From NCBI GenBank assembly GCA_019187105.1, contig JABAQM010000001.1:682001-746000 (forward strand): a DNA stretch of 64,000 nt. Reading direction: 5' to 3'. Origin of the DNA: Fimbriimonadaceae bacterium (GTDB lineage: Bacteria > Armatimonadota > Fimbriimonadia > Fimbriimonadales > Fimbriimonadaceae). The position numbers were made by a program, and so were the translations under genes. Shown piece after piece: positions 20,101 through 24,302 of the stretch. The notes under the pieces were generated by a model. It made no database searches, was not told the origin of the DNA, and was given only the letters and a program-made list of their open reading frames with translations. Within the stretch, counting starts at the first letter, position 1; every line of letters starts with the position of its first letter.

Positions 20101-20577
20101 ATGGACGATGAGCTGCTGCGGAAAGAGTTGCTGATCGGGCTGCAGTACTCCCATGAGGAAGAAGACTGGGTCGTGCCCCTTGGCTTGGCCCTTCAAGACG
20201 TCACCGCCGAGCAGGCATTGCGCCGACCGGCGCCAGACGCGATGGGAATCTGGGACATCGTTCTCCACCTTGCTAATTGGCACGAGAACATGATCGAACG
20301 GATCCATACCGGCGAGGAATCGCGGCCGGCAGAAGGCTCTTGGCCACCGCCACCGGCTGAACCATCGGAGACCGCATGGACCGCCGCAAAGGAACGCCTT
20401 TACCGATCACTGGCCGACCTCAAGGCGACCATGGAAACAACGCCGATGGAGAAGATCCTGGGCAGCTACTATGGCTTGGGTGACCTGCTCTGCAGGTTCA
20501 TCCACAATGGCTATCACATCGGCCAGATCGTGAAGATGCGAGAGATTCTCGGTCCGCCCCTTCCCAACATAGACTAG
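20101..20577 (+). CDS. DinB-family protein
   Basis: About 158 residues of the DinB/YfiT four-helix-bundle fold. The metal-binding His residues are visible in LHLANWHENM and in HNGYHIGQIVKMRE. Family members bind Ni or Zn, and some are thiol transferases acting with bacillithiol or mycothiol; the substrate here is unknown. ATG 20092 is also in frame, giving three more residues. Neither start has a Shine-Dalgarno, and both lie directly behind tRNA-Leu, so the mRNA end may be made by tRNA 3' processing. The stop interlocks with the convergent Hcp-like gene in CTAG at 20574-20577. Confidence 0.85.
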   Translation: MDDELLRKELLIGLQYSHEEEDWVVPLGLALQDVTAEQALRRPAPDAMGIWDIVLHLANWHENMIERIHTGEESRPAEGSWPPPPAEPSETAWTAAKERLYRSLADLKATMETTPMEKILGSYYGLGDLLCRFIHNGYHIGQIVKMREILGPPLPNID

Positions 20578-21062
20578 CCGAGCGGGCTATTCTCTGGCGT
20601 ACCTCCCTTATTCGACTTCATGTCCCACCAGCGGATCTGCTGCTCGCCCAGTCCTCCGTTTTGGTCTGGAACGATATGAGTGTACTCTATACGATTGAAC
20701 GCAACGGTCAGATCTTCAATAGGCATTGTCTCCCAGTCGTCACTTACACGATAACTGGAGATATACGACGTCGTCATCTTGTAGCGCTGGAACAAATATT
20801 CAACACCGTTGTGAACTCTCGTAACTTCTACGATGACCTCTTCAACCGACTTGCCATTGGCGCAACTGTAGAAAATCAGCGGCGACCCCTTGGCACACAT
20901 CTTCGAGATTCGGAAATCTTCAAAGGTCACCCTTCCGTTGCCTCCCTTATCAACGGGGATGTTGATTTCGCCCCAGCTGAATGAAAGGACTGTATGCCAG
21001 TCTCTGTGATCCTTCTGTTGGCATTCTCCCGGAATGCCCTTAATCTTTAAGTAGATGGGCAC
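20574..21062 (-). CDS. Hcp-like (type VI secretion tube protein family) protein
   Basis: A 162-residue protein that matches the Hcp beta-barrel pattern: IYLKIKGIPGE, HTVLSFSWGE, GRVTFEDFRISKMCAKGSPL, CANGKSVEEVIVEV, SSYRVSDDWETMPIEDLTVAFNRIEY and a C-terminal WWDMKSNK. Hcp forms hexameric rings that stack into the T6SS tube. The GTG start at 21062 is fixed by AGGAGG 6 nt upstream; the frame extends to 21101 without support. No tssB, tssC, vgrG or other T6SS gene is in the window, so this is an orphan. It follows the kelch-like gene by 13 nt and is probably translated from the same mRNA. A non-T6SS role is likely but unproven. Confidence 0.75.
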   Translation of the reverse strand: MPIYLKIKGIPGECQQKDHRDWHTVLSFSWGEINIPVDKGGNGRVTFEDFRISKMCAKGSPLIFYSCANGKSVEEVIVEVTRVHNGVEYLFQRYKMTTSYISSYRVSDDWETMPIEDLTVAFNRIEYTHIVPDQNGGLGEQQIRWWDMKSNKGGTPENSPLG

Positions 21063-21075
21063 TGTTAGCCTCCTA

Positions 21076-21681
21076 TTATCGCGGAATGCGCCGCGGCGCA
21101 TCGGGCAAGCGAATCATCTCGACATTGGCCTGGATTGACGCGGAAACACCTCCGATAACGAAAATGGTGGTTCCATCAGTAACGGCCCCGTGGTCGTAGC
21201 GTGGCCTTGCTAGGGGTTCCGATGCGTACCAACGATCGTCATTGGGGTCGTAAACCTCGACTGAGGCCGTTGGCTGCATGCCGTACCCGCCCAAGACGAC
21301 TGCCCTTCCATCCGCGAGAACGACGGCGGCATGCCGTGCCCTCGGAATCGACATGGGCGATGCTAGCGTTGCCGACCCCGTAACCGGATCCAAGAGGACA
21401 GCGGAGTTTAGCGGAATCGGGTGATGCCGAGAGTCGATGGGGCGACTGAACCCTCCAGTGACAAGAATGCGGCCATCAGGCAACAATACCGACGCAGCCA
21501 TGTATCGGCGGAGGGTGATCTCGCCAGATAGGCTCTGGGCAACAAATCGGTGCCGACCCGAGTCTGTTTCATTCAGAAACCGCGCGTAGGGGCTGGCGGC
21601 GAGGGTTGCGGCGCCGATCAGAATTTCCCTTCGCGTTATCGCGCCGTGCTGCAAGCTGGATAGCTGATCGCATGATTTCAT
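21076..21681 (-). CDS. Kelch-repeat protein with Tat-like signal
   Basis: A 201-residue protein whose N-terminus (ITRREILIGAATLAASPYA) looks like a twin-arginine signal with an RRExL motif. Kelch-type blades follow: LLPDGRILVTGGF, VLADGRAVVLGGYG...VEVYDPNDDRW and GTTIFVIGG. There are only about three blades, so the propeller is short or must be completed by oligomerisation. GGAGG 7 nt before ATG 21681 sets the start. The Hcp-like gene follows 13 nt downstream. Function unknown; a folded cofactor-free extracellular binding protein is a guess. Confidence 0.7.
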   Translation of the reverse strand: MKSCDQLSSLQHGAITRREILIGAATLAASPYARFLNETDSGRHRFVAQSLSGEITLRRYMAASVLLPDGRILVTGGFSRPIDSRHHPIPLNSAVLLDPVTGSATLASPMSIPRARHAAVVLADGRAVVLGGYGMQPTASVEVYDPNDDRWYASEPLARPRYDHGAVTDGTTIFVIGGVSASIQANVEMIRLPDAPRRIPR

Positions 21682-22140: not shown

Positions 22141-23385
22141 ATGAGTTCCTTTCAACCTCAATCGCCTCATAACGGGGGTCGGAGACGAAAGGGCCGCATG
22201 TGGATTCCAACCGCCTTCTTGGCCGTTGGGATCTTCGGATTGCTGGGCGGCGCTACCGCCTACAAGCCCCAACCACCCCCCGCACTGGGAGAAATGGTCG
22301 TTATCGCCTATAACGAGCTCGGCATGCACTGCATGAATGAGGACTTCTCCGAAATCTGCATCCTGCCTCCCTTCAACACGATGAAGGCAACCGTGATCGA
22401 CCGACGAAACGAGGATCCCAAGATCCTCACACTCGGCATCACGTTGGACTATTCCATTCCCGGCAACACGGTCAGCCATACCAAGACCAACTTCTGGGAC
22501 TACGACTTGCAGCTCTTTGGCGTCGATCTGCCCTTGGACGTTGGCTTGGGCGGTACCGGTCTTGCGGGGCAAATGTCCGTGACTGCGGACCGCGACTGGC
22601 AGGCAGTCGGCATCCCGGTTACACCGGTAACCGACGCGGGATTCGAGGATCCGTATCAGTTTGCCCAAGTGGTCGTGCGGCTCAATGGCGTCGCCAAAGA
22701 CACCACCCAAGCCGTGATTCCGGTCTCGTGGGAGATCCGATGCGACCGGTGCCACATCCCGAAGGGTGACGATTCCGTGGCGACCGACATTCTCAAGAAG
22801 CACGACCGCAAGCACGGAACGGATCTGGTTAACCAGAAGCCCGTCCTTTGCGCAAGGTGTCACGCCGACCCGGCACTCGGCACGATTGGTGAACCCGGCC
22901 TACCGACAATGAGCTCGGCCATGCACCTATCTCATGCAAAGCGGCCTTACTTGGCGCCACCGGCCTCACAGGCCCAAGGCAAGGAGAACACCTGCTACAA
23001 CTGCCACCCAGGCAAGGAAACGCTGTGTCTCCGAGACGTGCACGCGGCACGGGGTATGACCTGCCAAACCTGCCACGGCGGAATGAAGGCGGTTGGCAAT
23101 CCGACACGCAAGCCGTGGGCCGATCAGCCTCGCTGCGGAAGTTGCCATAACCGACCTGGATTCGAGTTCGAGCAGCCTGGCAAGCTGTTCAAGGACAGCG
23201 TCGGGCACAAGGGCGTGAAATGTGTGGTCTGCCACAACACCCCCCACGCTATTGCGCCGACGGTTACCGAACGCGACAACCAGCAGATGATTCGCGTTCA
23301 GGGTCATGCGGGAACGCTCGACACCTGTTCGGTATGCCATACCAAGGCGCCGGAGCACCCGTTCTTTCACAAAAGGGAGAGCTAA
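22141..23385 (+). CDS. Membrane-anchored seven-haem c-type cytochrome
   Basis: About 414 residues. An N-terminal TM segment (IPTAFLAVGIFGLLGGATA) is followed by a domain beginning MVVIAYNELGMHCMNEDFSEICILPPFNTM, a pattern I know from multihaem proteins of several environmental phyla. The second half has seven CxxCH haem-binding motifs: CDRCH, CARCH, CYNCH, CQTCH, CGSCH, CVVCH and CSVCH. It should carry electrons in the periplasm; the redox partner is unknown. ATG 22141 is chosen on the promoter and leader; ATG 22198 (with AAAGGG upstream) would still keep the TM anchor. A strong hairpin separates it from the convergent haemoglobin-like gene. Confidence 0.88.
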   Translation: MSSFQPQSPHNGGRRRKGRMWIPTAFLAVGIFGLLGGATAYKPQPPPALGEMVVIAYNELGMHCMNEDFSEICILPPFNTMKATVIDRRNEDPKILTLGITLDYSIPGNTVSHTKTNFWDYDLQLFGVDLPLDVGLGGTGLAGQMSVTADRDWQAVGIPVTPVTDAGFEDPYQFAQVVVRLNGVAKDTTQAVIPVSWEIRCDRCHIPKGDDSVATDILKKHDRKHGTDLVNQKPVLCARCHADPALGTIGEPGLPTMSSAMHLSHAKRPYLAPPASQAQGKENTCYNCHPGKETLCLRDVHAARGMTCQTCHGGMKAVGNPTRKPWADQPRCGSCHNRPGFEFEQPGKLFKDSVGHKGVKCVVCHNTPHAIAPTVTERDNQQMIRVQGHAGTLDTCSVCHTKAPEHPFFHKRES

Positions 23386-23392
23386 CGACAAC

Positions 23393-23427
23393 GGGCCGGG
23401 GCGGACTTCCCACGCCGCACCCGGCCC
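23393..23427. terminator. Bidirectional-type hairpin between cytochrome and globin genes
   Basis: GGGCCGGG / CCCGGCCC with an inner GCGG / CCGC extension and one bulged A forms a 12-bp stem, followed by a short pyrimidine tract (TTCTTCC). It sits between two convergent stop codons. Confidence 0.8.
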
Positions 23428-23444
23428 TTCTTCCTGCGCCGAAG

Positions 23445-24302
23445 CTACTTACCGACGATGTCGTCTCTCGTTGAGGCGATCACGGCGAAAAGCTCGTTCT
23501 GCTCTTTTAGTGGGACGTTGTACTTATCAAGAACCTGCTTCAGCAGTCCACCGGCAACTTCCCATTCCTTATCCGATATCTTGAGACCCTTGTGGGAATC
23601 CTTCATGGATCGTCCGGTGTACTTGAAAGGTCCACCTGTGGCCTGCGCTACCTGCTCGGTGAGAAGGTACTTCAGTCCGCCATGGGACACGTTGCCACTT
23701 GTCAAGGCCCTGACCGTATTGGGGTTGGAACCAATCACAGGATCCGCCCCGAGCAGATTAACGAAGTCGTTGATGACTAAGGTTATCGGCGCGATTCCGC
23801 CGAGTCGGGCATAAAGCGACTTGGAATCCTTGAAGATCTCAGTCGTCGGGGGCGCCATCGGCTTTGCAGCCTGCTCTCGCGCTTCGAAAGTCTTGCGCAG
23901 TTCCATAAACGCTTCTCGATCGACACCGAGCCTCTCGAAGCCCTTCCATCGGAGTTGCCATGCGTGTTCGTTCTGTTCGGGCGTATAGGCAAACCACTTG
24001 CACAGACTGGGCACATCATAAGGTGACTTTTGGGGGCCGCCAGTCATGCTGGCAACGTAATTGACGACCATGAACTTGACGAATGGCCGTGGAGCGGTTG
24101 TGATGGCCGATTTGTAATTGGGACTCTTGAGGAGCATCTCGTCCTTCGCTTCCTCATCCACAGCCCAATCCACCGCAGCCGCAATCTTGTGGATGCCACC
24201 AAGGCGGTCGTAAAGGGACTTGGCGGGATCCGCCGGCGCCAAAGCGCTAACGCTGAGCAGGGTGAGTATTGAGATCGATCGCATATCCATAGGAACGATC
24301 AT
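23445..24302 (-). CDS. Secreted tandem truncated-haemoglobin-like protein
   Basis: A 285-residue protein with a signal peptide (SISILTLLSVSALA) and two copies of a group-1 truncated haemoglobin fold. Copy 1 starts at SLYDRLGGIHKIA (about residue 29) and copy 2 at SLYARLGGIAPITLVINDFVN (about residue 162). Copy 2 keeps the family's TGGPFKYTGRSM segment and a proximal His in DSHKGLKIS. Copy 1 is divergent and shows no His in the matching region, so it probably binds no haem. Periplasmic export is unusual for trHbs. The start could also be ATG 24290 or 24284. It faces the seven-haem cytochrome, which suggests but does not prove a shared redox or NO/O2 role. Confidence 0.82.
   Translation of the reverse strand: MIVPMDMRSISILTLLSVSALAPADPAKSLYDRLGGIHKIAAAVDWAVDEEAKDEMLLKSPNYKSAITTAPRPFVKFMVVNYVASMTGGPQKSPYDVPSLCKWFAYTPEQNEHAWQLRWKGFERLGVDREAFMELRKTFEAREQAAKPMAPPTTEIFKDSKSLYARLGGIAPITLVINDFVNLLGADPVIGSNPNTVRALTSGNVSHGGLKYLLTEQVAQATGGPFKYTGRSMKDSHKGLKISDKEWEVAGGLLKQVLDKYNVPLKEQNELFAVIASTRDDIVGK

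Follow-up and report, generated by a model that had tools for sequence, protein, structure and literature searches.

The window, a 64,000-nucleotide stretch of the 3.3-Mb Fimbriimonadaceae genome G000, carries two convergent genes that code for a truncated haemoglobin made of two globin units and for a seven-haem c-type cytochrome. Our preferred reading, to which we give a probability of about 0.6, is that the genes represent two separate families, found side by side in G000 by chance. The globin would be an exported tandem group-1 truncated haemoglobin (TrHbN) with a haem-free unit 1, and the cytochrome would be a separate electron carrier. What is new is an exported tandem TrHbN-2-like family in which a unit devoid of the haem anchor is conserved. 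Multidomain truncated haemoglobins and the exported haemoglobin-multihaem fusions of cable bacteria were already known. This half-blind globin is more interesting than the cytochrome next to it. The original prediction, which had described the two genes and proposed that their products work as a pair, is largely correct in its anatomy. The genes are real and the pairing is unsupported.

Gene layout and the tandem globin family

The cytochrome gene (22141..23385, + strand), recognised by seven CxxCH motifs and 15 aligned relatives, consists of 414 codons (414 aa) from ATG 22141 to the stop codon at 23383-23385. The tandem globin gene (23445..24302, − strand) consists of 285 codons (285 aa) and runs from 24302 down to its stop at 23445. 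The two genes are arranged tail to tail, and the 59-bp gap between them holds a hairpin at approximately 23393..23427, a possible shared terminator on the basis of its fold energy. This energy is −28.8 kcal/mol (z −2.56), a value matched by 4 of 200 shuffles. The hairpin was absent from the output of a simple terminator scan. The coordinates confirm the convergence of both genes on one hairpin, as had been proposed.

A family-alignment search retrieved 12 tandem globin genes from 11 of the 291 Armatimonadota genomes. Export was read from hydropathy and from the AxA motif in the N-terminal sequence. In the window, the signal-like N-terminus (24237..24302, − strand, from hydropathy) starts at ATG 24302 or ATG 24290 and ends near ALA/APA. 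A hydrophobic N-terminal stretch is present in all 12 tandem globins, with best 12-residue hydropathy values of 1.95 to 2.83, and it is the maximum of the whole protein in all of them except that of G014. An AxA motif occurs within the first 36 residues in 11 of the 12, at a position that is not always cleavage-like. The N-terminal sequences therefore support the signal peptide postulated for the globin and point to export of both proteins. The predicted model of the whole globin has a mean pLDDT of 89. One genome, G075, contains two similar tandem globin genes (L007 and L012), each near a contig end; their units are 89% and 96% identical, and both proteins have the proximal (F8) His in both units.

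Most studied truncated haemoglobins are cytosolic. The statement that a signal peptide is rare among truncated haemoglobins looks overstated, as judged from plasmids, where 26 records with a truncated-haemoglobin match were found and six were inspected by eye. Five of these six (Azoarcus, Cupriavidus, Microvirga, Sinorhizobium and Caballeronia) have an export-like N-terminus, with a lipobox-like GSC in the Cupriavidus protein and a start codon that is not settled in the Sinorhizobium one; the N-terminus of the Methylocystis protein is not export-like. In the frames read, each of the six proteins consists of one unit, and the Azoarcus record contains a second match. Export is not unique to the tandem globin family. 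On the Caballeronia plasmid (L072, 2090-4133), the export-like truncated haemoglobin is flanked by a DUF3034 gene and by a gene annotated as encoding a methylamine utilization protein. A protein resembling a single truncated-haemoglobin unit (30% identity) and annotated as hypothetical is also found in Salmonella phage STG2 (MK005300.1, 81190-81588).

One intact globin unit and one without proximal histidine

Unit 2 (23448..23822, − strand, delimited by alignment and model) keeps its proximal His (codon 23592-23594). It scores 28.4 bits with the Pfam Bac_globin model, over the cut-off of 21, and its sequence matches solved group-1 truncated haemoglobins. The predicted structure superimposes on TrHbN of Shewanella benthica (8uzu) with a Z of 19.0 and an rmsd of 1.4 for 116 aligned residues. 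The F8 His is found in unit 2 of 12 out of 12 tandem genes. By its Bac_globin score, by the fold of its model and by its F8 His, unit 2 is a group-1 truncated haemoglobin.

The distal pocket of unit 2 is apolar in all 12 genes, with V, I or A at B10, L or I at E7 and V or L at E11. Three aligned single-unit relatives of the same phylum that have no export signal (G100, G021 and G141) carry Tyr, Gln and Gln at these positions. According to PMC11904497, an apolar B10/E7/E11 set marks subgroup TrHbN-2 and is tied to low O2 affinity; its authors also state that their TrHbN-2 protein escapes easy prediction and emphasise its reactivity with peroxide. Unit 2 has the hydrophobic residues of this subgroup at B10, E7 and E11, the three positions covered by the comparison. 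At CD1, where Phe is preferred, the alignment has Leu or Ala, and the reading of the pocket is incomplete because the CD loop that contains CD1 is extended here and aligns poorly. Compared with the TrHbN-2 protein SbHbN of S. benthica (8UGZ), unit 2 shares the predicted fold (Z 18.8-19.0), the F8 His and the hydrophobic B10/E7/E11 set, whereas the window globin differs by its export-like N-terminus, its tandem organisation, its longer CD loop, the lack of a visible aromatic CD1 and the presence of one unit without F8 His.

Unit 2 would bind one haem b via the F8 His. Since its distal pocket is apolar, it is most likely a reversible binder of diatomic gases with a low O2 affinity, presumably located in the periplasm. 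Its role would be gas storage, buffering or scavenging rather than fast NO dioxygenase activity. As such, the exported tandem globin lends itself to testing the function of a gas binder of low affinity outside the cytoplasm.

Unit 1 (23868..24221, − strand, from alignment and model) has a Cys at the F8-equivalent position (codon 24000-24002) and no proximal His; no other His was seen by eye in its F8 stretch. The claim that only the second unit keeps the proximal His is thereby verified. No Pfam match to unit 1 of the window was obtained at E 1. Its matches to solved truncated haemoglobins are weak (E 0.075 or worse), and a designed protein ranks above them at 0.0032. Residues 21-142 of the model align with the globin domain of DosC with a Z of 8.4 and an rmsd of 3.4 over 110 residues, the tool urging caution for helical folds at such a Z. 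Alignment to relatives together with the predicted fold identifies unit 1 as a globin.

Five genes have a His at the F8 position of unit 1 (G016, G060, G064 and the two of G075). The other seven carry Cys (G000), Asp (G165, G164 and G176), Glu (G014 and G026) or Gln (G007). These seven His-less units group together as a single clade (support 92/87) that 94% of 200 bootstrap trees recover; the branch of G026 is long. The tree thus gives moderate support to a single loss of the F8 His in unit 1. The 12 unit 2 sequences also form one clade (89/80). The unit 1 sequences do not, as the two of G075 group with the unit 2 sequences and the single-unit globins (98/93). With the unit 1 sequences of G075 on the unit 2 side, the tandem may have arisen once or more than once.

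Amino-acid identity is lower for unit 1 than for unit 2 in 10 of the 10 pairs compared. The dN/dS ratio of unit 1 could be computed for four of the 10 pairs and is always below 1, from 0.11 to 0.32, with synonymous sites near or at saturation in every pair but that of G075. Values for units 1 and 2, respectively, are 0.17 and 0.09 for G164/G176, 0.32 and 0.12 for G016/G060, and 0.11 and 0.03 for the two G075 genes. In G000/G007, the one pair involving the window for which both units were computable, the values are 0.20 and 0.23, so that unit 1 is not the faster one. Unit 1 is still under purifying selection.

Two other explanations of unit 1 have to be weighed against a retained haem-free domain. 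Unit 1 could be a decaying relic of the duplication, en route to loss and without any role; we regard this as possible though doubtful. The lower identity of unit 1 in all pairs and the blindness of Pfam to the window's unit 1 agree with decay. However, dN/dS is well below 1 wherever it is computable, all seven His-less genes have kept an open reading frame, the His-less units form one clade, and five of the seven share a new signature, HAW where the G helix begins (by eye), that is found in none of the five others. Alternatively, unit 1 might still bind haem through another ligand, for instance the Cys at the F8 position, and the protein might be a two-haem sensor or redox protein. The Cys found in the window and the globin-like predicted fold would allow this. 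In the six other His-less genes, however, the F8 column holds Asp three times, Glu twice and Gln once; such varied residues make a common haem role unlikely, and we consider this explanation very improbable. A globin domain retained without haem accounts for the data on unit 1 better than a relic does. In the His-less clade, unit 1 would have lost its haem anchor and been kept as a domain with the globin fold, probably with a role in contact or stability. An exported globin in which one unit is intact and the other has no anchor is a natural test of the globin fold without haem.

Multidomain truncated haemoglobins were reportedly already in print in Hade et al. 2017. In Chlamydomonas, as described in PMC7082302, THB5 has four truncated-haemoglobin units and THB3 is a truncated haemoglobin without F8 His. 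Repeated units in one chain and the absence of F8 His therefore both have precedent there. In contrast with these proteins, the window globin is bacterial and signal-bearing, and its His loss is confined to unit 1 of a two-unit chain, within one clade. Among the matches listed from open-licence PMC papers, no title or abstract opening mentioned the present seven-haem cytochrome or a bacterial truncated haemoglobin that is both exported and tandem, which is not proof of absence.

The seven-haem cytochrome

The cytochrome begins with a hydrophobic segment (22198..22263, + strand, from sequence) that may be a signal peptide or a membrane anchor, the start being ATG 22141 or ATG 22198. It is followed by a conserved N-terminal beta domain (22291..22737, + strand; residues 51-199, from alignment and model) and by the haem part (22741..23340, + strand). 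The CxxCH motifs at residues 201, 237, 285, 308, 332, 361 and 396 correspond, by counting from residue numbers, to positions 22741, 22849, 22993, 23062, 23134, 23221 and 23326. Fifteen relatives, 50-68% identical to the window's protein, were aligned with it. As had been predicted, the protein has seven CxxCH and a conserved N-terminal domain: the seven motifs are present in 16 of the 16 sequences, and N-x-L-G-M-H-C is invariant in the N-terminal domain. The hydrophobic N-terminal segment may be the membrane anchor that had been described for the cytochrome, or it may be a cleaved signal peptide. In three of the 16 sequences, a lipoprotein-like GCGGGG was seen by eye at the N-terminus.

With its seven motifs and its export-like hydrophobic N-terminus, the protein is a multihaem c-type cytochrome. 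Nine His outside the motifs and two non-haem Cys are invariant in the 16 sequences, and nine invariant His provide ligands enough for seven bis-His haems. A bis-His electron carrier is the best reading suggested by the sequences. The cytochrome would be periplasmic or membrane-attached, and all its seven haems could be bis-His.

The structural model is of moderate quality (mean pLDDT 71). In the model, the N-terminal domain is beta-rich and gives weak matches, many of them Ig folds, with Z from 3.1 to 3.7. Foldseek returned nothing with an E of 0.001 or lower, and VIA-align no match with Z of at least 5, which does not prove a new fold. A profile built from the 16 sequences found weak solved relatives, the best being an ammonia-forming nitrite reductase (E 0.0098). 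Library models match mainly the haem part, where Cytochrome_C7 is over its cut-off. PF22113 (MtrC/MtrF domains II/IV) reaches 30.7 bits, barely over its cut-off of 30, and matches only six of the 16 members at E 0.01. TIGR03508 (DmsE-type decahaem) reaches 31 bits, far under its cut-off of 192.2. The likeness to DmsE- and MtrC-type cytochromes thus concerns the haem part, weakly for TIGR03508 and barely over the cut-off for PF22113. The window's protein differs from them in having seven haems, not ten, and no conserved partner gene nearby; we take the MtrC/MtrF family to have ten haems, partly from the NCBIfam name of TIGR03507. The copies of Pfam and NCBIfam searched held no model specific to the seven-haem family. 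On plasmids, nothing related to the cytochrome was detected at E 1e-5, and its N-terminal domain was matched at E 2 at best; PHROGs gave no match at E 0.01. A distant member of the phylum, G218, has two copies of this cytochrome family (L117 and L124).

Association of the two genes across genomes

A family-alignment search at E 1e-30 or better located the cytochrome in 22 of the 291 Armatimonadota genomes. Both genes occur in three of the 291 (G000, G016 and G060), and they adjoin in G000 only. In G016 they are on contigs C5 and C9, and in G060 on contigs C7 and C9, each gene lying 13 kb or more from the ends of its contig. Eight of the 11 tandem-globin genomes have no cytochrome, including the single-contig genome G007 of the same family. 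Over the phylum, the overlap of three genomes compares with 0.8 expected (Fisher one-sided p 0.04). Within the family, 1.9 shared genomes are expected and p is 0.30, a value obtained with a family size of at least 79 genomes and which a larger count would lower.

Gene neighbourhoods were compared in 25 regions, some of them short at contig ends: those of 15 other cytochromes, of eight other tandem globins and of the single-unit globin of G094, and that of the window. No conserved neighbour emerged, the only groups found in more than three of the 25 regions being the cytochrome, the globin and overlapping frames. Gene trees also disagree, since unit 2 of G000 groups with that of G014, a genome without the cytochrome, and the G000 cytochrome groups with those of G012, G016 and G060. 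As evidence counter to chance, a tandem globin occurs in three of the four genomes of this nearest cytochrome clade.

The periplasmic O2/NO-handling or electron-transfer pair put forward originally was reasonable in principle because fusions of this kind exist in cable bacteria. PMC11976967 and PMC13047784 describe exported fusion proteins in which one or two truncated-haemoglobin domains are linked to an Ig-like domain and a multihaem cytochrome, and which are proposed to act as an alternative periplasmic oxidase. The window's proteins can be likened to lPHCtX of these bacteria in that an exported truncated haemoglobin goes with a multihaem cytochrome. The beta-rich N-terminal domain of the window's cytochrome, with its weak matches, may or may not be a counterpart of the Ig-like domain that lPHCtX has next to its haem domain. 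In lPHCtX, however, the parts are fused, while here two genes stand on opposite strands and mostly do not co-occur; the haem number also differs, with five there and seven here, in the window as in 15 of the 15 relatives.

A functional pair, the two-gene counterpart of these truncated haemoglobin-pentahaem fusions, would have the cytochrome feed electrons to the exported globin and O2 or NO reduced in the periplasm. The adjacent and convergent genes, the export-like nature of both proteins, the globin in most genomes of the nearest cytochrome clade and the cable-bacteria precedent speak for it. The rarity of the combination, its separation in the other two genomes, the tandem globins without cytochrome, the discordant trees for G000 and the unlike haem number speak against it, and we hold it to be decidedly unlikely. 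Still less probable, in our view, is a split version of the cable-bacteria fusion in which unit 1 would dock the cytochrome to form a periplasmic O2- or NO-reducing module. The pair does not pass the co-occurrence test and is not supported. Functional pairing by gene neighbourhood was rejected on the 25-region comparison together with the co-occurrence statistics. The adjacency in G000 is most likely incidental, in agreement with the preferred reading of two independent families, and this negative result guards against reading function into chance adjacency.

A denitrification context was considered and rejected, as the NosZ and NirK profiles are not over cut-off in G000. The NosZ profile (TIGR04246) is over cut-off in five of 101 genomes, not including G000 yet including the tandem-globin genome G075, and the NirK profile (TIGR02376) in none of the 101. 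In this search, which covered NosZ and NirK, no home-made source of NO was found in G000. The weak NosZ matches of most other genomes, mainly at profile positions 500-578, resemble the CuA portion of a cytochrome oxidase, as we infer.

Close to the two genes lie two further genes that overlap each other (20574-21101 and 21076-21681, both − strand), one of the Hcp family and the other with kelch repeats; PF05638 matches this Hcp gene and nothing else in the genome. The sheath gene of the type VI secretion system (PF05943) was not found in the G000 genome. The kelch-repeat gene beside the Hcp gene has a twin-arginine-like N-terminus, RREILIGAA, as seen by eye.
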